64,000 bases of DNA from Xanthomonas codiaei (GTDB lineage Bacteria > Pseudomonadota > Gammaproteobacteria > Xanthomonadales > Xanthomonadaceae): NCBI RefSeq assembly GCF_002939785.1, contig NZ_MDEC01000001.1, positions 124,001-188,000 of the forward strand, given 5' to 3'. Both the position numbers and the translations under genes were made by a program. The notes beneath the pieces are model-generated. The model saw only the letters and a list, made by a program, of their open reading frames with translations, was not told where the DNA came from and made no database searches. Below are positions 14,408-25,078 of this stretch, piece by piece (positions within the stretch are counted from its first letter, which is position 1; every line of letters starts with the position of its first letter).

Positions 14408-14496
14408 AAACCATCGTTGACCATCCCGGCGCGTGGCGACGCGCCTGGCTTGTCCGGTGGTCGCAGACCGTGGAGGCGCCTGCTACCATGCGCGGC

Positions 14497-14712
14497 CCTG
14501 AGGTGACTGCCGGCTGGCCGGTGGTTTAAACGGGAATCCGGTGCGCGCATCGCCTTGGCGGGCGCAAGTCCGGAGCTGCCCCCGCAACGGTGGGCGAGAC
14601 AAGGGTCTGCACGTAACGCCACTGTGCTGTGCATGGGAAGGCGCAGGCCCGGGAAGCGACCGCTTCCGCTCGCGAGCCCGGAGACCGGCCTGAAGGGATT
14701 GACCCGGCACGC
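14497..14712 (+). promoter_or_regulatory. Cobalamin riboswitch
   Basis: Conserved elements occur in the right order. GGTTTAAACGGGAATCCGGTG near 14523 opens the core, GCTGCCCCCGCAACGGT is at about 14576-14591, and the B12 box AGCCCGGAGACCGGCC is at about 14675-14690. The leader precedes btuB by about 110 bases. Binding of adenosylcobalamin would repress the B12 uptake and salvage operon downstream. The exact ends of the P1 stem are approximate. Confidence 0.93.
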
Positions 14713-14823: not shown

Positions 14824-16701
14824 ATGTCCGTTTCTTCCGTTTTGCCGCGTCGCGCCGTGCTGGCGGCGGGTCTGTCGTTGTGCGTGGCCTCGCTGGCCCA
14901 GGCCGAGGCCGCCATCGATCTGGACGAAGTGGTGGTGACCGCCTCGCGCACCGCACAGACCCAGGACCAGACGCTGGCGCCGGTCACCGTGATCGACCGC
15001 GCGCAGATCGAGCGCCGCCAGGTCAATTCGTTGCAGGACCTGCTGCGCGGCGAAGCCGGCGTGTCGCTGGCCAACAACGGTGGCCCGGGCAAGGCGACCT
15101 CGTTGTTCCTGCGCGGCACCGAGTCGGACCATCTGGTGGTGCTGATCGACGGCGTGCGTATCGGTTCGGCCACCGCCGGTGGCGCGGCGCTGCAGGACCT
15201 GCCGATCGAGCAGATCGAACGGATCGAAATCGTGCGCGGGCCGTTTTCCAGCCTGTATGGCTCCGAGGCATTGGGCGGGGTGATCCAGATCTTTACCCGT
15301 CGCCCGCAAGGCAGTTTCGTGCCCACGCTCAGCGTGGCGGCCGGTAGCGACAATGCGCGCCGTTACGGGGCCGGTGTCGCCGGGCGCAGCCAGGGCGACC
15401 TGAGCGAGGCCGGCGGCTGGTATTCGGTCAACGCCGTGCATGACGAAACCGATGGCATCAATGCGTACCTGGATACCAGCTCCAGCGCCTACGATCCGGA
15501 CCGCGATGACTATCGCAACGATTCGTTGAGCATGCAGGGCGGCTGGCGCTTCAACCGGCAGTGGGATGCCGATGTGCATGCGTTGCGCACGCAGAGCCGC
15601 AACGAATACGACGGCTCGGCCTTCGGCGGCAACCTGGGCAAGGGCGTGCAGCAGGCCGTGGGCGGGCGCGTGCGCTATGCGCCCAGCGACGCGCTCAAAT
15701 TCACCGCCAGCCTGGGGAGCAGCGCCGACCTGAGCGATAGCTATTACGACGGCGCGTACCTGTCCACCTACGACACGCGCCGCAAGCAGGGCGCGTTGCA
15801 GGCCGACATCACCACCGCGCCCGGTCTGCTCACGGTTGGCTTCGACTGGCAGCGCGATGCCATCGCCAGCAGCGACAGCTACGATGCCGACAGTCGGATC
15901 GACCGCGCGGCCTTTGCGCAGTGGCAACAGCGCTTCGGCAGCCAATCGCTGCAGGCCAGCCTGCGGCGCAACGACAACAGCCAGTTCGGCGGCAAGACCA
16001 CCGGCAGCCTGCTGTGGGGTTGGGATTTCGCCGATCATCTGCGCCTGACCGCCAGCTACGGCACTGCGTTCAAGGCGCCTACCTTCAACGAGCTGTACTA
16101 CCCCGATTTCGGCAATCCGCTGCTGGGGCCGGAAACCTCCAAGAGCGCCGAGTTGGGCCTGCGTGGCAGCTACGACTGGGGCGTGTGGACGCTCAGCGCG
16201 TTTCAGACCCACATCGACGATCTGATTGCCTACGATGCGGGGCTGGTGGATGCCACCCATCCGTTCGGGCAGCCGAACAACATCGACAAGGCGCGCATCC
16301 GCGGTGTGGAAGCCGGCTACGACACCGAGCTGGCCGGCTGGACCCTGCGCAGCGCGCTGACCTGGCTACAGCCGCAGGCCGATGGCGAGGTCGATCGTTG
16401 CAACTGGTTGCCGCGCCGCGCACGCCAGAGCGGGCGGATCGATGCCGACCGCAGCTTCGGCGCGTTCGGCGTGGGCGCGAGCCTGTTCGGCTCGGGCAGG
16501 CGCTACGACGACCTGGCCAATACCGAGCGACTGGCCGGCTACGGCTTGCTGGATCTGCGCGTGAGCTATGCGGTGAACGCGGACTGGAAGGTGCAGTTCA
16601 CCGCCAACAACGTGTTCGACCGCCAGTACGAAACCGCGCGCTGGTACGCACAGCCGGGACGCAACTACCTGCTGACCTTCCGCTACCAACCGGCGCAGTG
16701 A
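14824..16701 (+). CDS. btuB: TonB-dependent vitamin B12 receptor BtuB
   Basis: A 625-residue outer-membrane receptor, the usual BtuB length. It has a signal peptide (VLAAGLSLCVASLAQAEA), a TonB box DEVVVTAS at residues 34-41, a plug domain containing LFLRGTESDHLVVLIDGVRIGSA and RGPFSSLYGSEALGGVIQI, and a barrel that ends RNYLLTFRYQPAQ. It imports cobalamin and related corrinoids with TonB-ExbBD energy. Position directly after a cobalamin riboswitch and before cobalamin-finishing genes confirms the specificity. No btuC/btuD/btuF genes are in the window, so the inner-membrane step is unassigned here. Confidence 0.95.
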   Translation: MSVSSVLPRRAVLAAGLSLCVASLAQAEAAIDLDEVVVTASRTAQTQDQTLAPVTVIDRAQIERRQVNSLQDLLRGEAGVSLANNGGPGKATSLFLRGTESDHLVVLIDGVRIGSATAGGAALQDLPIEQIERIEIVRGPFSSLYGSEALGGVIQIFTRRPQGSFVPTLSVAAGSDNARRYGAGVAGRSQGDLSEAGGWYSVNAVHDETDGINAYLDTSSSAYDPDRDDYRNDSLSMQGGWRFNRQWDADVHALRTQSRNEYDGSAFGGNLGKGVQQAVGGRVRYAPSDALKFTASLGSSADLSDSYYDGAYLSTYDTRRKQGALQADITTAPGLLTVGFDWQRDAIASSDSYDADSRIDRAAFAQWQQRFGSQSLQASLRRNDNSQFGGKTTGSLLWGWDFADHLRLTASYGTAFKAPTFNELYYPDFGNPLLGPETSKSAELGLRGSYDWGVWTLSAFQTHIDDLIAYDAGLVDATHPFGQPNNIDKARIRGVEAGYDTELAGWTLRSALTWLQPQADGEVDRCNWLPRRARQSGRIDADRSFGAFGVGASLFGSGRRYDDLANTERLAGYGLLDLRVSYAVNADWKVQFTANNVFDRQYETARWYAQPGRNYLLTFRYQPAQ

Positions 16702-16787: not shown

Positions 16788-17381
16788 ATGACCCCACTGT
16801 CCCGTCCTGCCCAGCGCAACCTGCTCATCGCCCTGATGCTGGCGATGACGGCCACCCGCTTCCATCACGTGGGCGATTGGCTGCATCTGCCCGATGCCTC
16901 GATGGCGGTGTTCTTCCTTGGCGGCCTGGCGCTGCGCCGGCACGCGGCGTTCGCGCTGTTGCTGGTGCTGGCGGTGCTGATCGACTGGGCCGCGGTCTCG
17001 CTGGCCGGCGTCAGCGACTTCTGCATCACCGCCGCCTACGCCGAGTTGCCGCTGGCCTATGCCGTGCTGTGGTACGCCGGCCGTGCGTTCCAGGCGCGCC
17101 TTGCACCTGCGGCGATGTCGTTGTGCGCGGCCTGGGCGTTGGGGGTCGCGGCTGCAGCGGTGTCGTTCCTGATCTCCAATGGCGCGTTCTATTGGCTGGG
17201 CGGGCGCTATCCCGACCCGCACTGGGCGCAGTACCTGCAGCGTGCGTGGCAGTGGGGCCCGGTGTTCGTGCGTAGCACTGCGCTGTATCTGGCGGTGGCG
17301 CTGGCCGTTGCGGGGTGTGTGCTGCGCTGGCGCACCAGCCGCGATGCCGCCGATTCGACCACCGCGCTGGAGCTGTCATGA
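16788..17381 (+). CDS. Membrane protein of the B12 operon, candidate corrinoid/cobalt transport component (copy 1)
   Basis: A 197-residue, very hydrophobic protein with about five or six membrane segments and no recognised domain. It is paralogous to the next gene: both share L-P-x-A-S-x-AVFFL-x-G, an ID/LD-W/LI segment, a late (L)AYA-x-LW-x-GGR-like motif, and S/K-x-G-x-FY-x-L-x-GRYP. It lies 86 bases after btuB under riboswitch control and its stop overlaps the start of copy 2 (ATGA). Size and topology resemble S-components of ECF transporters, but no ECF T-component or ATPases are nearby. Transport of corrinoid or cobalt across the inner membrane is an inference from context only. Confidence 0.75.
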   Translation: MTPLSRPAQRNLLIALMLAMTATRFHHVGDWLHLPDASMAVFFLGGLALRRHAAFALLLVLAVLIDWAAVSLAGVSDFCITAAYAELPLAYAVLWYAGRAFQARLAPAAMSLCAAWALGVAAAAVSFLISNGAFYWLGGRYPDPHWAQYLQRAWQWGPVFVRSTALYLAVALAVAGCVLRWRTSRDAADSTTALELS

Positions 17382-17989
17382 CCGTCGCTTCGCATCAGGC
17401 CGCGCCCGCGCGAACGGCCCTGCACGGCGGGGCCGCATGGGCCTGTGGCAGCGCACTGGCGCTGCTGATGGTCTGCACCCGCGGCCAGCATTTGGCCAGC
17501 GTGGACGTGTTGCCGAGCGCCTCGTGGGCGGTGTTCTTCCTGGCCGGTGCATTGCTGCGCCCGGTGTGGATGCTGCCGCTGCTGTTCGGGCTGGCCTCGG
17601 CACTGGATCTGATCGGCCTGGCCTCCGGCAGCATCGACGACTGGTGCCTGTCGCCAGCGTACTGGGCGCTGGCGCTTGCCTATGCCGCGTTGTGGCTGGG
17701 CGGGCGGTGGTCTGCCGTGCGGTTTCAACGCGATGCATGGGCAGGCCTGCCACGTGTGCTTGGCGCGCTGTTGCTCAGCGGTAGCGCGGCCTACCTGCTG
17801 TCCAAGGGTGGCTTTTATTTCCTTTCCGGCCGCTATCCGCAGGCCACGCTTGGCGGCTTCCTGGCCCGCGTGCCGGTGTACTACCCACGCGCGCTCGGCA
17901 CCCTGGCCGGCTACGTGGGTGTCACTTTCGCATTGCTTGCCGCAGGGCGCAGCCTTGCCGCACGTCCACTGATGGGAGAGCGCGCATGA
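17378..17989 (+). CDS. Membrane protein of the B12 operon, candidate corrinoid/cobalt transport component (copy 2)
   Basis: A 203-residue hydrophobic protein, paralogous to the preceding gene. Matching blocks are VLPSASWAVFFLAGALLRP, DLIGLASGSIDDWCLSPAY, LAYAALWLGGR and SKGGFYFLSGRYP. An acidic pair IDDWC replaces VSDFC in copy 1. The start ATG at 17378 overlaps the upstream stop, and its own stop overlaps the cobO start, so three genes are translationally coupled. Two similar membrane proteins made together suggest a heterodimeric membrane complex, which is inference. No cofactor-binding motif is visible. Confidence 0.75.
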   Translation: MTVASHQAAPARTALHGGAAWACGSALALLMVCTRGQHLASVDVLPSASWAVFFLAGALLRPVWMLPLLFGLASALDLIGLASGSIDDWCLSPAYWALALAYAALWLGGRWSAVRFQRDAWAGLPRVLGALLLSGSAAYLLSKGGFYFLSGRYPQATLGGFLARVPVYYPRALGTLAGYVGVTFALLAAGRSLAARPLMGERA

Positions 17990-18597
17990 CCACCCCAGAA
18001 CACGACGACGCGCATTATCGGCAACGCGCGCAACGCAAGAAGGAACTGGTGGACCGGCGCATCGCGCGCGCGGTGATCGACCGCGGCGTGTTGCTGGTCA
18101 ATACCGGCAACGGCAAGGGCAAGAGTTCGTCCGGCTTCGGCATGCTGGCGCGCTCGCTCGGGCACGGCTTGCACTGCGGCGTGGTGCAGTTCATCAAGGG
18201 CACGTTCTCCACTGGCGAAGAGGCATTCTTTCGCCGTTTTCCCGACCTGCTCGACTACCACGTGATGGGCGAGGGCTTCACCTGGGAAACCCAGGACCGC
18301 AACGTGGATATCGCCGCCGCGCAGGCGGCCTGGCAGCTGGCACGCGGCATGCTCGCCGATGCACGCTACGACTTCGTACTGCTGGACGAACTCAATATCG
18401 CCCTGGTGAAGGACTATGTTGCGTTGGACCAGGTGCTGGCCGCAGTAGCCGCGCGTCCGCCCGGCCAGCATGTGGTGATCACCGGACGCGGAGCGCCCGC
18501 CGGCCTGATCGAAGTGGCCGACACCGTCACCGAGATGCGGCTGGTCAAACATGCCTTCAACGCCGGCATCAAGGCGCAGCTCGGCATCGAGCTGTAG
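17986..18597 (+). CDS. cobO: Corrinoid adenosyltransferase CobO/BtuR
   Basis: A 203-residue protein of the CobA/CobO/BtuR family, normal length. The P-loop GNGKGKSS is at residues 41-48. [24 protein letters not shown] and [10 protein letters not shown] are family hallmarks. It transfers the 5'-deoxyadenosyl group of ATP to cob(I)alamin or cobinamide in the cytosol, the first step for imported corrinoids. Translationally coupled to the upstream membrane protein (ATGA). Confidence 0.95.
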
Positions 18598-18661: not shown

Positions 18662-19576
18662 ATGCTGCTGATGACGGCCACCGCAGCAGTGCTGCTGGAT
18701 CTGCTGCTGGGCGAGCCGCGGCGGGCGCATCCACTGGTGCTGTTCGGGCGGTGGGCGCAGCGCATCGAGCAACGCCTGCACCGTGACCACCGCAGCGCCG
18801 GCGTGCTGGCGTGGTGCGTGACGGTGCTGCCGTGGACGCTACTGGCCGCAGGGCTGCAGGCACTGCTGTGGTGGTGGTCGGCCTGGGCGGCAGCGGGGTT
18901 TGCCGCCGTGATGCTGTATCTGGCACTGGGATTGCGCAGCCTGGGCGAACACGCGCAACCGGTGATCGCTGCGTTGCAGGCCGACGACCTGCCGGCAGCG
19001 CGCGCGGCAGTGGCCCGCATCGTCAGTCGCGATACCGCCGCGCTGGATGCCACGCAGGTGGCCGCGGCCGCCACCGAATCGGTGTTGGAAAACGGTAGCG
19101 ACGCCGTATTCGCCGCGTTGTTCTGGGGCGTGGTGCTGGGTGCGCCGGGCGCGGTGTTGTACCGGCTGTCCAATACGCTGGATGCGATGTGGGGCTATCA
19201 CACGCCGCGCTATGTCAGCTTCGGCTGGGCGGCGGCACGGATCGACGATGTGCTCAACTGGTTGCCGGCACGCCTGACCGCGGCCACCTACGCCGCGCTC
19301 GGCGCAACGCACGTGGGCCTGCGCTGCGCCTGGCGCCAGGGCCGCGGCTGGAAAAGCCCGAATGCCGGGCCGGTGATGGCCGCCGGTGCCGGCGCGCTGC
19401 GCGTGCGCCTGGGTGGCCCGGCGCCGTATCACGGCCAGTGGCAGCCACGTCCCGGCTTGGGCGAGGGCGCTCCGGCCAGTGCCGACAGCGTGCGCCGCGC
19501 GCTGTTGCTGGTGCGCGCAGGCGTGCTGCTCTGGTTGCTGCTCGGCGCCTTGCTGATGGCGATGGTGATGCAATGA
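18662..19576 (+). CDS. cbiB: Adenosylcobinamide-phosphate synthase CbiB/CobD
   Basis: A 304-residue integral membrane protein. It begins [21 protein letters not shown], where the LLLGEP-HP-V-FG motif is diagnostic of CbiB. Later blocks [29 protein letters not shown] and [10 protein letters not shown] are also conserved. It attaches the aminopropanol phosphate (or ethanolamine-type) linker to adenosylcobyric acid. No strong Shine-Dalgarno precedes the ATG at 18662; a GTG at 18635 is an alternative start. Part of the riboswitch-controlled operon. Confidence 0.92.
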
Positions 19577-19678
19577 TCGCAGCCGATGCCGACCGCCGCA
19601 CCGGCTGTGCACTGCGCGGCTGTGCAGTACACGATTGCGACCGGCCGCGGCGCCATGTCTTTTCCTTCGGAGCACCGC

Positions 19679-20662
19679 ATGCTTGAACACGGAGGCCGGT
19701 TGCGCCGCGCCGCGCAGACCTACGGAATTCCGCTGGCGCAGTGGCTGGATTTGTCCACCGGGGTGAGCCCGTTTGCCTGGCCGGTGCCGGCGCTTCCGCA
19801 GCCGGTGTGGCAGCGCCTGCCCGAAGACGACGACGGCCTGGCCGCGACCGCGGCGGCGTACTACGGCGCGCCGCAGGTGCTGCCGGTGGCCGGCTCGCAG
19901 GCGGCGATCCAGGCGCTGCCGCTGCTGCGTGGTCGCGGCCGCGTGGGCGTGCTCGCGCCGGGCTATGCCGAACATGCGCATGCCTGGCGGCGCGCCGGCC
20001 ACAGCGTGGTGCCGCTGCCGGCAGCGGCCTTGCTGCAGGCGGCGGAGACCTTCGATGTGGTGGTGCTGATCCATCCGAATAATCCCTGCGCGGACCGCTT
20101 CGATCGCGAGGTTCTGTTGCAGCTGCATGCGCGGATGGCGGCGCGGGGCGGCTGGCTGGTGATCGACGAGGCCTTCATGGATGCGACCCCGCAGGCGAGC
20201 GTGTGCGCGCACACGCAGCAGCCGGGCCTGGTGGTGCTGCGCTCGGTGGGCAAGTTCTTCGGCATGGCCGGCGCGCGGGCCGGCTTCGTGTGCGCGCATC
20301 CGCCGCTGCTGGATGCCTTGCGCGAACAGCTGGGGCCATGGTCCGTGAGCGGGCCCACCCGCTGGGCCGTGCAGCAGGCCCTGGCCGATACCGGCTGGCA
20401 CGTGCAGGCACGCGCGCACCTGCACGCCGCATCGCAGCGGCTGGCGCTGTTGCTGCGTCGCCACTGCATCGTGCCCTCGGCCGGCACCGCGTTCTTCCAG
20501 TGGTGCGAACGCGCCGATGCGCAGGCCCTGCACGTGGCGCTGGCACAGCGTGGCATCCTCACCCGGCTGTTCGAGATGCCGGCCAGCCTGCGCTTCGGCC
20601 TGCCGCCCGATGCGGCCGGCGAGGCGCGCCTGGACGCGGCACTGCGCGAGCTGCTGGCATGA
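19679..20662 (+). CDS. Threonine-phosphate decarboxylase (CobC/CobD type)
   Basis: A 327-residue PLP enzyme of the histidinol-phosphate aminotransferase-like fold. The N-terminus [17 protein letters not shown] and DLSTGVSPF mark the cobalamin-specific branch, and the PLP lysine is Lys192 in [15 protein letters not shown]. It decarboxylates L-threonine-O-3-phosphate to (R)-1-amino-2-propanol phosphate, the linker used by CbiB. GGAG seven bases before 19679 supports this ATG; upstream in-frame ATGs (19586, 19655) lack a Shine-Dalgarno. Its stop overlaps the cobQ start. The symbol is cobD in Salmonella and cobC in Pseudomonas, so none is given. Confidence 0.9.
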
Positions 20663-22134
20663 GCGCGCGCGTGCTGATGGTGCAGGGTTGCACCTCCGAC
20701 GCCGGCAAGAGCACCCTGGTGGCTGCACTGTGCCGTTGGCTGCACCGCCAGGGCGTGGCGGTGGCGCCGTTCAAGCCGCAGAACATGGCGCTCAATTCGG
20801 CGGTCACCGTCGATGGCGGCGAGATCGGCCGTGCGCAGGCCGTGCAGGCACAGGCCTGCGGGCTGGAGCCGCACACCGACTTCAACCCGGTGCTGCTCAA
20901 GCCCAACAGCGACACCGGTGCACAGGTGATCGTGCACGGGCGGGCGGTGGCCACGCTGGATGCGGTGGGCTATCACGCCTACAAGTCCACCGCGCTCAGC
21001 GCCGTGCTGGCCTCGCACGCCCGCCTGGCCGAGCGCTTCGAGGTGGTATTGGTGGAAGGCGCCGGCAGCCCGGCTGAGATCAACCTGCGCGCCAACGACA
21101 TCGCCAACATGGGCTATGCCGAGGCGGTGGATTGCCCGGTCCTGCTGATCGCCGACATCGACCGCGGCGGCGTGTTCGCGCATCTGGTCGGCACCCTGGC
21201 ATTGCTGTCGGACAGCGAGCGCGCGCGCGTGGCGGGGTTTGTCATCAATCGTTTTCGTGGCGACCTGGCACTGTTGCAACCCGGTCTGGACTGGCTGGAA
21301 CGCGAAACCGGCAAACCCGTGCTGGGTGTGTTGCCATATCTGCATGGGTTGCAGCTGGAGGCCGAAGACGCGTTGCCGCGGCACGCCGTGCACAAACCGG
21401 ATGCGCCATTGCGCGTGGTGGTGCCGGTGCTGCCGCGGATCAGCAGCCACACTGATGTCGATGCCTTGCTGGCGCATCCACAGGTCGATGTGCAGCTGGT
21501 CGGCCCGGGGCAGCTGCCGCCGCCTTGCGATCTGATCGTGCTGCCGGGAAGCAAGTCCACCCGCCACGATCTGGACTGGTTGCGCGCGCAGGGCTGGGAG
21601 AGCGCCATTGCGCGCCACCTGCGCTACGGCGGCAAGGTGCTCGGCATCTGTGGCGGCCTGCAGATGCTGGGCGAGCAGATCCACGACCCCGACGGCATCG
21701 AAGGCCCGCCCGGCAGCAGTGCAGGGCTGGGCTGGCTGGCGCTGGACACGCAGCTGCATCCGCACAAGCAGCTGCATCGCGTGCAGGGGCGCTTGCTGCT
21801 GGGCGATGCGCGTGCGCACGGCTACGAGATCCATTGCGGCATCAGCACCGGCGCGGCACTGACGCGTCCGCTGCTGCGGCTGGACGATGGCCGCAACGAT
21901 GGAGCCATGTCCGAGGACGGCCAGGTGCTGGGCACGTATCTGCACGGCATCTTCGACCACCCGCAGGCACTGCATGCATTGCTCGCATGGGCCGGCCTGG
22001 CGCAGGCGCTGCCGGTGGATCTTGCCGCGCTGCGCGAGGCCACGCTCGAGCGCCTGGCCGATGCGGTGCAGACACATCTGGATACCGCCGCACTGACGCG
22101 GCTCACCTGCAGGGACCCGTCATGCGGCAGTTGA
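20659..22134 (+). CDS. cobQ: Cobyric acid synthase CobQ/CbiP
   Basis: A 491-residue glutamine-dependent amidotransferase. The N-terminal dethiobiotin-synthetase-like domain starts [20 protein letters not shown] and includes [12 protein letters not shown]. The C-terminal class I glutaminase-like domain has nucleophile Cys331 in [10 protein letters not shown] and His392 in EIHCG. It amidates adenosylcobyrinic acid a,c-diamide to adenosylcobyric acid. Its presence without corrin-ring genes implies that incompletely amidated corrinoids are accepted, or that other genes lie elsewhere. It overlaps cobU by 13 bases. Confidence 0.95.
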
Positions 22135-22657
22135 TCCTGGGAGGCGCCCGCTCCGGCAAGAGCGCACTGGCCGAAGGCTTCGCCGCCAGCGCTCTCGCCG
22201 CCGGCACCGCTGCCGAGGTGGCCTATGTCGCCACCGCGCAGGCCTTCGATGCGGAAATGCAGCAGCGCATCGCGCATCACCGTAGCCGGCGTCCGCCGCA
22301 GTGGCAGTGCGTGGAAGAACCCATCGCCCTGGCGGCCACCCTGCAGGCGCTGGCGGCGCCGCAGCGCTGCGTGCTGGTGGATTGCCTGACCCTGTGGCTG
22401 AGCAACCTGCTGGGTCACCCGGATGCGGATACCTTCGCGCGCGAGCGCGCGGCGTTGCTGGCCACGCTGCCGCAGCTGCCGGGGCAGATCGTGCTGGTCA
22501 GCAACGAGGTGGGGCAGGGCATCGTGCCGCTGGGCGAACTTACGCGGCGTTTGTCGACGAGGCCGGCTGGCTGCACCAGGCATTGGCGCTACAGTGCGAG
22601 CGGGTGGTGTTGGTGGTGGCGGGCTTGCCGATGGTGTTGAAGGGAGAGGTGCGATGA
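22122..22657 (+). pseudogene. cobU: Adenosylcobinamide kinase/guanylyltransferase CobU, frameshifted near the 3' end
   Basis: [21 protein letters not shown] carries the CobU P-loop (GGARSGKS), and [12 protein letters not shown] and [18 protein letters not shown] follow as expected. The frame then shifts at a TTT at 22550-22552: the frame in use reads into a Trp/Arg-rich tail ending at 22640. The conserved C-terminus [12 protein letters not shown]...[12 protein letters not shown] lies in another frame, ending at 22657. One additional T would restore it, and that stop would form the usual ATGA overlap with cobT at 22654. The enzyme phosphorylates cobinamide and makes GDP-cobinamide. With this shift it would lose about 30 C-terminal residues; check for a sequence error. 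Confidence 0.88.
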
Positions 22658-23700
22658 GCAGCGACTGGATCTTTGCGCCCTGCGCGGTGCCGGATGCGCG
22701 CGTGCGTGCAGCTGCGCTGGCACGGCAGGAACAACTGACCAAGCCGCACGGTGCGCTGGGCCGGCTCGAGCAACTGGCGGTGCAGCTGGCGGCCTGGCAA
22801 CGCAACGAGCATCCGCTGATGCAGCGGATCTGGATCGCGGTGTATGCCGCCGACCACGGTGTGGCGGCCGAAGGCGTGTCTGCGTTTCCGCAGGCGGTGA
22901 CCGGTGAGATGGTGCGCAACTTCGCCCGTGGCGGTGCCGCGATTTCGGTGCTGGCGCGCGAACTGGGGGCACGGCTGGAGGTGGTGAACCTGGGCGTGGT
23001 CAACGACCCGGGCGAGCTGCCGCGTGTGCGCCGTGCCTGGATCGCGCCTTCCAGCGCCAATATCTGCGAACAACCGGCCATGACGCCCGGCCAGCTGCGC
23101 GACGCGCTTGCCGCGGGTGCCCAGAGCATTGCGCAGGCAAGCAGCTGCGATACGCAGCTGTTCGTGGGCGGCGAGATGGGCATCGGCAACACCACCGCTG
23201 CGGCCGCGCTGGGCTGCGCGCTGTTGTCGCAGTTTCCGCAATCGATGGCCGGCGCCGGTACCGGGCTGGATGCCGAAGGCATCGCACACAAGGCCACCGT
23301 GATCACTCGCGCGCTGGCGCTGCATGCCGATGCCGCCACCCCGCTGGAGCGCCTGCGCCGGCTCGGCGGTTTCGAGATTGCCGCCCTGGTGGGCGCCTAC
23401 ATCGCCGCTGCGCAGGCCGGCATCCCAGTGCTGGTGGATGGCTTCATCACCACCGCCGCGGCACTGGTGGCCACCCATCTCAACCCTGGCGTGCGGCAGT
23501 GGCTGCTGTTCGGGCATCGCTCGCAGGAGCGCGGCCACGCGGCGTTGCTGCGCGCGCTGGATGCCGAGCCGCTGCTGCAGCTGGACCTGCGCCTGGGCGA
23601 AGCCAGCGGCGCGGCGGTGGCGATCCCGCTGCTGCGCAGCGCCTGCGCCCTGCACAACGGCATGGCCACCTTTGCCGAAGCCGGAGTCTCCGACGCATGA
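22654..23700 (+). CDS. cobT: Nicotinate-nucleotide--dimethylbenzimidazole phosphoribosyltransferase CobT
   Basis: A 348-residue protein, the usual CobT length. [52 protein letters not shown] and [13 protein letters not shown] are hallmark motifs. It activates the lower-ligand base to alpha-ribazole 5'-phosphate. A strong Shine-Dalgarno AGGGAGAGG at 22641-22649 precedes the ATG. Its stop overlaps the start of the phosphatase gene. No bluB is present in the window, so the dimethylbenzimidazole source is not shown here. Confidence 0.96.
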
Positions 23701-24311
23701 GCGCGCAGATCACCTTGCTGCGGCACGGCGATACCGGCCAGCGCAGCTATCGTGGCCAGCTCGACGACCCGCTCACCGAGCTGGGTTGGCAGCAATTGCG
23801 CGCAGCCACCGCCGATGGCAGCTGGGACGTGGTGGTGGCCTCCACGTTGCAGCGCTGTGCAGCGTTTGCCGCCGAACTTGCCGGCGCGCGCGGCTTGCCG
23901 TTGCAGCTGGACCCGCGGCTGCGCGAATACCACTTCGGCCGCTGGCAGGGTGTGCCGGTGGCCGATATCGATCGCGACGAAGGGCAAGCGCTGGGCCGCT
24001 TCTGGGCCGACCCGCTGCGCTACCCGCCGCCGCAGGCCGAACCGTTTACCGACTTCTGCGCGCGCCTGTCGGCCGCGCTCGACGCCATCGTCGCCCGCTA
24101 CCCGGCACGGCGCGTGCTGGTGGTCACCCACGGCGGCGCCATTCGCGCCTTGCGTTGCCTGGTCGCCGGTAGTGGTTTCGGCCGGATGACCGAACTGGCG
24201 GTGCCGCATGCATCGCTGCATCCGCTGGCCTGGCCGCCAACCGACGCGGCTGGCGCCCCGAGCCCGCCGCTCTCGTCCACGGCATCGCCACCGGCGCACG
24301 GCACCGAATGA
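23697..24311 (+). CDS. cobC: Alpha-ribazole phosphatase-like histidine phosphatase CobC
   Basis: A 204-residue histidine phosphatase. The catalytic RHG is at residues 9-11 (LLRHGDT), the second conserved stretch is [12 protein letters not shown], and the second His is in [11 protein letters not shown]. It removes the phosphate from alpha-ribazole phosphate or adenosylcobalamin phosphate. It overlaps both neighbours by the ATGA arrangement. The last 25 or so residues after the domain are Pro/Ser/Ala-rich and not family-like. Confidence 0.9.
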
Positions 24312-25078
24312 TCGACGGGCTGCTGGCGGCGATCGGGTTCCTGACCCGCATCCCGGTGCCCGCCCGGGTGTTCACGCGCGCAGGCGCGCAGGCGCGCTCG
24401 CTGTGCTGGTACCCGCTTGTGGGTGTGTTGCTCGGTGGGGTGGTGTGCGGGTTGGCCTGGTGCCTGCGCGAAGTTGCGCCGTTGCTGGGCGCAGCGTTGC
24501 TGTTGAGCGCCTGGGTGTGGCTGACAGGCGCCTTGCACCTGGATGGCCTGGCCGACACGACCGATGCCTGGGTCGGGGGCCTGGGCGAACGCGCACGCAC
24601 GCTGGCGATCATGAAGGACCCCACCAGCGGCCCAATGGCGGTGACCGCGGTGGTGCTGGTGTTGCTGCTCAAATGCGCCGCATTGGCCAGCCTGCTGGCG
24701 CAGGCGCAGGCGCAGGCGCAGGCGCCGGCGCCGGCGCCGGCGCCGGCCACGCTATGGCTGGCGCCGCTGCTGGCACGCAGCGCGCTGGTTGCCGCGTTCC
24801 TGAGTACGCCGTACGTGCGCGCCGGCGGGCTTGGCAGCGCGCTGGTGGGCGCACCGCGTGCCGGCCTGTGGCTGGCGCTGATCGCCGCCGCGGCGGTGTG
24901 CATGGTGGCCGGGCTGGCGACCGCCTTGCTGTGCGGCGGCATCACCGCAGTGGTGTTCGCGCTCTGGCGCCGCGCCTGCCTGCAGCGCCTGGGCGGCATG
25001 ACCGGCGACACCTGTGGCGCCCTGGTGGAACTGACCGAAACCGCGGTGCTGGTGACGCTGGCGCTGTGGTCGGGTTGA
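24308..25078 (+). CDS. cobS: Cobalamin synthase CobS (adenosylcobinamide-GDP ribazoletransferase)
   Basis: A 256-residue inner-membrane protein with several membrane segments. FLTRIPVP near the N-terminus and the acidic LHLDGLADTTDAW motif (Mg2+ binding) are diagnostic, and GGMTGDTCGALVELTE is conserved at the C-terminus. It joins alpha-ribazole(phosphate) to adenosylcobinamide-GDP, the last step of nucleotide-loop assembly. A loop at about residues 131-146 is a pure Ala-Gln/Ala-Pro repeat encoded by hexanucleotide repeats. It is the last gene of the riboswitch operon. Confidence 0.95.
   Translation: MIDGLLAAIGFLTRIPVPARVFTRAGAQARSLCWYPLVGVLLGGVVCGLAWCLREVAPLLGAALLLSAWVWLTGALHLDGLADTTDAWVGGLGERARTLAIMKDPTSGPMAVTAVVLVLLLKCAALASLLAQAQAQAQAPAPAPAPATLWLAPLLARSALVAAFLSTPYVRAGGLGSALVGAPRAGLWLALIAAAAVCMVAGLATALLCGGITAVVFALWRRACLQRLGGMTGDTCGALVELTETAVLVTLALWSG
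24698..24745 (+). repeat. In-frame hexanucleotide tracts (GCGCAG)4 and (GCGCCG)4 within cobS
   Basis: Four copies of GCGCAG (24698-24721) run directly into four copies of GCGCCG (24722-24745). They encode alternating Ala-Gln then Ala-Pro in a loop between membrane segments. Because the unit is six bases, copy-number change would alter loop length without breaking frame. Confidence 0.9.

Follow-up and report, generated by a model that had tools for sequence, protein, structure and literature searches.

What carries corrinoids across the inner membrane when a vitamin B12 operon encodes an outer-membrane receptor and finishing enzymes, and BtuCDF is lacking? The question is raised by the window, a 64,000-nucleotide stretch of Xanthomonas codiaei DNA, in which two genes, here called A and B, follow btuB under a cobalamin riboswitch. 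An earlier note had proposed their products as a new corrinoid or cobalt transporter.

The operon and the rest of the genome

The operon comprises the following features.

14484..14707, +, cobalamin riboswitch (RF00174; cmscan 92.8 bits, E 9.8e-22), 116 nt before btuB
14824..16701, +, btuB, TonB-dependent vitamin B12 outer-membrane receptor (TIGR01779 917.5 bits, cut-off 599.7)
16788..17381, +, gene A, BtuM lineage A, 197 aa (ATG 16788 to TGA 17381; Cys79 corresponds to TdBtuM Cys80)
17378..17989, +, gene B, BtuM lineage B, 203 aa (ATG 17378 to TGA 17989; Cys90 corresponds to TdBtuM Cys80)
17986..18597, +, cobO/btuR, CobA/CobO-type corrinoid adenosyltransferase (ATG 17986; PF02572 200.9 bits)
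18662..19576 (start approximate), +, cobD/cbiB, adenosylcobinamide-phosphate synthase (PF03186 317.5 bits)
19586..20662 (start uncertain), +, threonine-phosphate decarboxylase, here cobC (TIGR01140 362.2 bits, cut-off 290.55)
20659..22134, +, cobQ, cobyric acid synthase (TIGR00313 456.8 bits, cut-off 309.9)
22122..22657, +, cobU (PF02283 157 bits over residues 4-145 of a 172-residue frame)
22654..23700, +, cobT, dimethylbenzimidazole phosphoribosyltransferase (TIGR03160 437.7 bits, cut-off 319.3)
23697..24311, +, alpha-ribazole phosphatase-like (PF00300 148.9 bits; TIGR03162 131.9 bits, below its cut-off of 162.9)
24308..25078, +, cobS, adenosylcobinamide-GDP ribazoletransferase (PF02654 182.7 bits; TIGR00317 116.1 bits, cut-off 110)

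The riboswitch, the BtuB receptor and the finishing enzymes (cobO, cobD/cbiB and the downstream cob genes) that the earlier note had described were all recovered, and this riboswitch is the only one above cut-off in the whole genome. Enzymes coded downstream of cobO and cobD have established family roles in finishing cobinamide to cobalamin, and the cobO product is likely to serve as a metabolic trap for imported corrinoid. ATGA overlaps are read in the sequence at both the A/B and the B/cobO junctions, which makes the coupling proposed for each of these two gene pairs plausible. Gene A starts 86 nt past the btuB stop (16701) and therefore belongs to the same operon; the description 'directly after btuB' holds in that sense, but there is no overlap with btuB. 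The 3' end of cobU appears frame-shifted (open reading frames 21525-22640 and 22301-22657, the Pfam match stopping at residue 145), which is either a real change or a sequence error.

BtuCDF has the same role as that considered here for A and B, bringing B12 across the inner membrane, but is an ABC transporter. Its reported lack was upheld genome-wide: no FecCD-type permease (PF01032) was matched in the genome (13/14 control genomes positive). CbiC was not found in the genome either. The genome does hold a third BtuM gene, C, on the minus strand at G000:C18 (L195:4035-5172), directly before a PduO-type adenosyltransferase gene (TIGR00636 189.8 bits). C lies in a 906-codon open frame with an ordinary BtuM start within it, and a fusion to another domain is not claimed.

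Relationship of A and B to BtuM

A prediction of the BtuM family reportedly dates from 2003. Earlier work cited in PMC6072759 did predict the family before BtuM of Thiobacillus denitrificans (TdBtuM; structure PDB 6FFV) was characterised in 2018 (PMC6072759). As expected from the earlier note, A and B are homologous proteins of about 200 residues (33% identity in the alignment), and B as query recovered A from its own genome at E 9.1e-17. Both matched BtuM of known structure (library entries 8c7p and 8ovv): A over residues 5-175 (phmmer E 5.8e-22) and B over residues 22-188 (E 5.4e-37). Both have an S-component-like membrane fold as in BtuM, similar also to ThiT, RibU and BioY. Solitary BioY and other ECF S-components, which are unlike A and B in their substrates, gave no sequence match to either in the search against the structure library. 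A and B are thus, as judged by sequence, members of the BtuM family and relatives of a known single-protein vitamin B12 importer. A new transporter family is ruled out by the BtuM matches together with the fold similarity. What stands of the original proposal is an inner-membrane corrinoid transporter that is similar to a solitary ECF S-component; its novelty does not, and a role in cobalt transport is unsupported.

TdBtuM resembles A and B in size, fold, invariant cysteine, pocket residues and lack of an ECF module, and its gene, like theirs, lies near btuB and a gene for an adenosyltransferase. The equivalent of its cobalt-binding Cys80 is kept in 187/188 family rows, and the pocket residues H28, D67, Y85 and R153 (TdBtuM numbers throughout) are all conserved in both proteins of the window; the histidine is replaced by Ala in 3/47 lineage A rows. 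The sole cysteine exception, Gly in the C copy of another genome of the genus (L150_C; G175, 410 contigs), occurs in a genome whose best metH (5.1e-74) and BtuB (2.2e-27) matches are weak, a pattern as expected if B12 use were being lost.

Lineages, neighbourhoods and distribution

We labelled upstream copies A, downstream copies B, and copies beside a PduO-type gene without btuB at the locus C. Independently of this labelling, each label corresponds to a clade in the tree, and the C stretches are without cob genes. The 188-row quick tree leaves out L001-L034 and L115-L146 (profile-tested instead), L042 and L073 (broken frames), L172 (contig equal in length to that of L072), L174 (no BtuM) and the short BtuM fragments of L040 and L084. 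In it, 43 downstream copies grouped with single copies of Pseudomonas and others, and 43 upstream copies with C (support 99, starred). The upstream copy fell within the A clade (98, starred) in 42/43 two-copy tree loci and the downstream copy within B in 43/43, while 60 PduO-linked rows made up one side of a branch (98, starred). The upstream copy of L099 (Panacagrimonas) is a long branch outside the A clade in both trees. Single cob-operon copies within the family fall in A (L147, L148, L151, L203); in L043 and L084, both cut by a contig end, the BtuM copy falls in B.

A wider, careful tree of 83 rows agrees with the quick one (A 98/95, B 100/96, C 100/98, all starred), and its A clade takes in order members whose operon has A as its only BtuM (L248, L250, L252). 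The split of B, single BtuM and TdBtuM from A, C and others has support of 94/87 in this unrooted tree, under the starred level; B may have come beside A either by an old duplication or by transfer. Among 33 further two-copy loci assigned by profile score, 22 of which have every BtuM row identical to a tree row, the order was A then B in 32/32 loci whose frames are both intact, and likewise in the single locus whose upstream copy is broken. A recent tandem duplication is ruled out, with upstream and downstream copies in separate parts of both trees; the duplication claimed earlier survives as homology but not as a recent tandem copy. Lineages A and B are each under constraint in a Nei-Gojobori dN/dS comparison (hand-picked genomes: 9 for the A/B pair, 8 for C); both are old and have stayed together. 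Two BtuM genes also lie far apart, non-tandem, within one cob operon in L224, L225 and L226. The four copies of L224 and L225 form one clade in the 83-row tree (99/96, starred), and the pair in these two loci therefore arose separately.

With the window genes as queries, neither a cob gene nor btuB was found in the fetched stretch of 60/60 PduO-type loci; among 120 other BtuM loci, which include places seen twice and stretches of varying length, CobO or CobD was present in 119 and btuB in 117. In other gammaproteobacterial families of the class sample, BtuM adjoins a PduO-type gene outside lineage C (L228, L229 and L241, the last with btuB as well), so the pairing is not exclusive to C and may have arisen more than once. 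The order btuB-btuM-cobO-cobD-cobC-cobQ is common to the window and many single-BtuM operons of Pseudomonas, Stutzerimonas and Azotobacter, whose BtuM groups with B in the trees; these loci are, however, without an A copy, and cobO was undetected beside BtuM in L078, L079, L082 and L094. In L039 and L146, probably one genome, cobD and cobC were not found between cobO and cobQ.

BtuM was matched in 127/198 genomes of the family, 63/200 of the order sample and 40/369 of the class sample. The tandem pair is present in at least 37/198 family genomes: the genome of the window, 35 known from fetched loci (G092, with a broken upstream copy, among them) and G176, with two adjacent matches. The named loci (best 80 of 508) carry two BtuM genes in 43 cases, counting L042 and L073 (one copy each in broken frames) and L084 (upstream copy cut by a contig end), and one in 37. 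Of these best 80, the two-copy loci belong to Lysobacterales (41), Nevskiales (1; Panacagrimonas, L099) and an unranked gammaproteobacterial bin (1), and the one-copy loci lie outside Lysobacterales or are unranked in 36 cases, the remaining one being a Xanthomonas locus truncated where its contig ends.

A metH match was found in 198/198 family genomes (over cut-off in 185). MetH of the window's genome appears to be in two separate pieces (G000:C9:97337-101327), and matches to the large piece only are common in family genomes. FecCD was over cut-off in just 3 of the 71/198 genomes without a BtuM match. The other 68/198, some of them incomplete, have metH but neither BtuM nor FecCD over cut-off and therefore point to another importer or to a BtuM too distant for the model. 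B12 importers other than BtuM are likely in the family; an influence of a BtuD-type ATPase on B12 uptake has been reported for Lysobacter (PMC6538783).

Proposed import route and competing readings

We consider it very likely that A and B both act as solitary S-component importers of the BtuM type, through which a corrinoid salvage operon under riboswitch control accomplishes its inner-membrane step. TdBtuM is described as supporting growth on B12 of E. coli lacking BtuC/BtuF, with base-off binding through the cysteine, slow decyanation and binding of cobinamide shown; toppling, facilitated diffusion and trapping by BtuR are put forward there as hypotheses (PMC6072759). By analogy, B12 uptake and decyanation of cyano-corrinoids would extend to A and B. 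BtuB would bring the corrinoid across the outer membrane, and on the periplasmic side A or B would bind it in the base-off form, the conserved cysteine coordinating cobalt, and remove cyanide where needed. A toppling movement, hypothetical for TdBtuM too, might then carry the corrinoid across without ATP. Adenosylation by CobO may trap it inside, as hypothesised for TdBtuM, and the downstream enzymes would turn cobinamide into cobalamin. A and B would be expected to differ in the corrinoid form handled.

That last expectation meets a rival reading, in which one substrate is carried by both A and B, the second copy only adding capacity. Operon and regulator are common to both, the equivalents of Cys80, Asp67, Tyr85 and Arg153 are kept in both lineages, and some relatives are without one of the two copies. 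However, sixteen positions part A from B almost completely, the lineages are old and each constrained, and pairs of another arrangement arose in one cob operon in L224, L225 and L226; we regard redundancy as possible, though unlikely. Lineage A has a residue set of its own relative to TdBtuM: T82, G139 and Y150 (each 47/47), M40 (46/47) and G158 (45/47). Lineage B has S82, S139 and F150 (each 45/45), W40 (43/45) and Y158 (41/45). M40, T82, G139 and G158 set A apart from TdBtuM as well as from B. Both lineages are nearly fixed at these sites, and A could therefore have another substrate. T82 is found outside A too (e.g. L230, L235), G139 was not found outside A in the wider rows, and the A-clade member L252 has Met at 158. 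Position 153 is Asn in 60/60 C rows and nearly always Arg in A and B.

A three-way division of labour, with B for cobalamin, A for corrinoids that are incomplete or different, cobinamide for example, to feed the nucleotide-loop operon, and C delivering cobalamin to the PduO-type adenosyltransferase, is a tentative idea that we hold to be rather improbable as a whole. One genome of the same genus (G017) fits a related pattern, in which A and B would serve salvage of incomplete corrinoids and C the complete vitamin: in its locus L218, btuB precedes fragments of cobU and of a phosphatase gene, with cobT between them; A, B, cobO, cobD, cobC and cobQ were not found there, and the genome keeps C-PduO and MetH. 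This is a single case.

That A and B function only jointly, as a heteromeric importer, appears quite improbable. The constant order of A and B would suit such a complex, as would their junctions: in 40/41 loci the stop of B shares bases with a start codon in the cobO frame, and the A stop lies within ATGA in 8/41 and within GTGA in 6/41. Against it, A is alone in the cob operon in the seven loci listed above, a B-like BtuM is alone in Pseudomonas and Azotobacter loci, and TdBtuM acts by itself in E. coli (PMC6072759). The notion of S-components sharing an ECF module encoded elsewhere draws on the fold similarity to ThiT, RibU and BioY, but we give it almost no credence: CbiQ/EcfT, the T-component that the earlier note had described as not adjacent to A and B, is absent from the whole genome (10/14 control genomes positive), and TdBtuM works in E. 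coli, which has no ECF module (PMC6072759). Pfam includes the CbiM and HupE families. Import of cobalt instead of corrinoids, by HupE-, CbtX- or CbiM-like proteins, is extremely improbable, since neither Pfam nor NCBIfam gave any match to A or B at E up to 1, CbiM and HupE included.

Overall, the type of importer is known, and what is new is how it is organised: the BtuM pair is real and conserved and, compared with TdBtuM, consists of two old lineages in tandem, with a third beside a PduO-type gene. No description of paired BtuM was found among the literature matches listed (open-licence papers). As a B12 importer BtuM is very simple, and a genome with three of its lineages, two sharing an operon, offers a direct natural comparison of the effects of residues around the cobalt-binding cysteine. 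Neither A nor B has a Pfam or NCBIfam name, so annotation can make B12 uptake in these bacteria seem to have a gap. If the three-way division were true, solitary importers would gain a new substrate class in lineage A, and each lineage would be paired with one vitamin form and one finishing enzyme.
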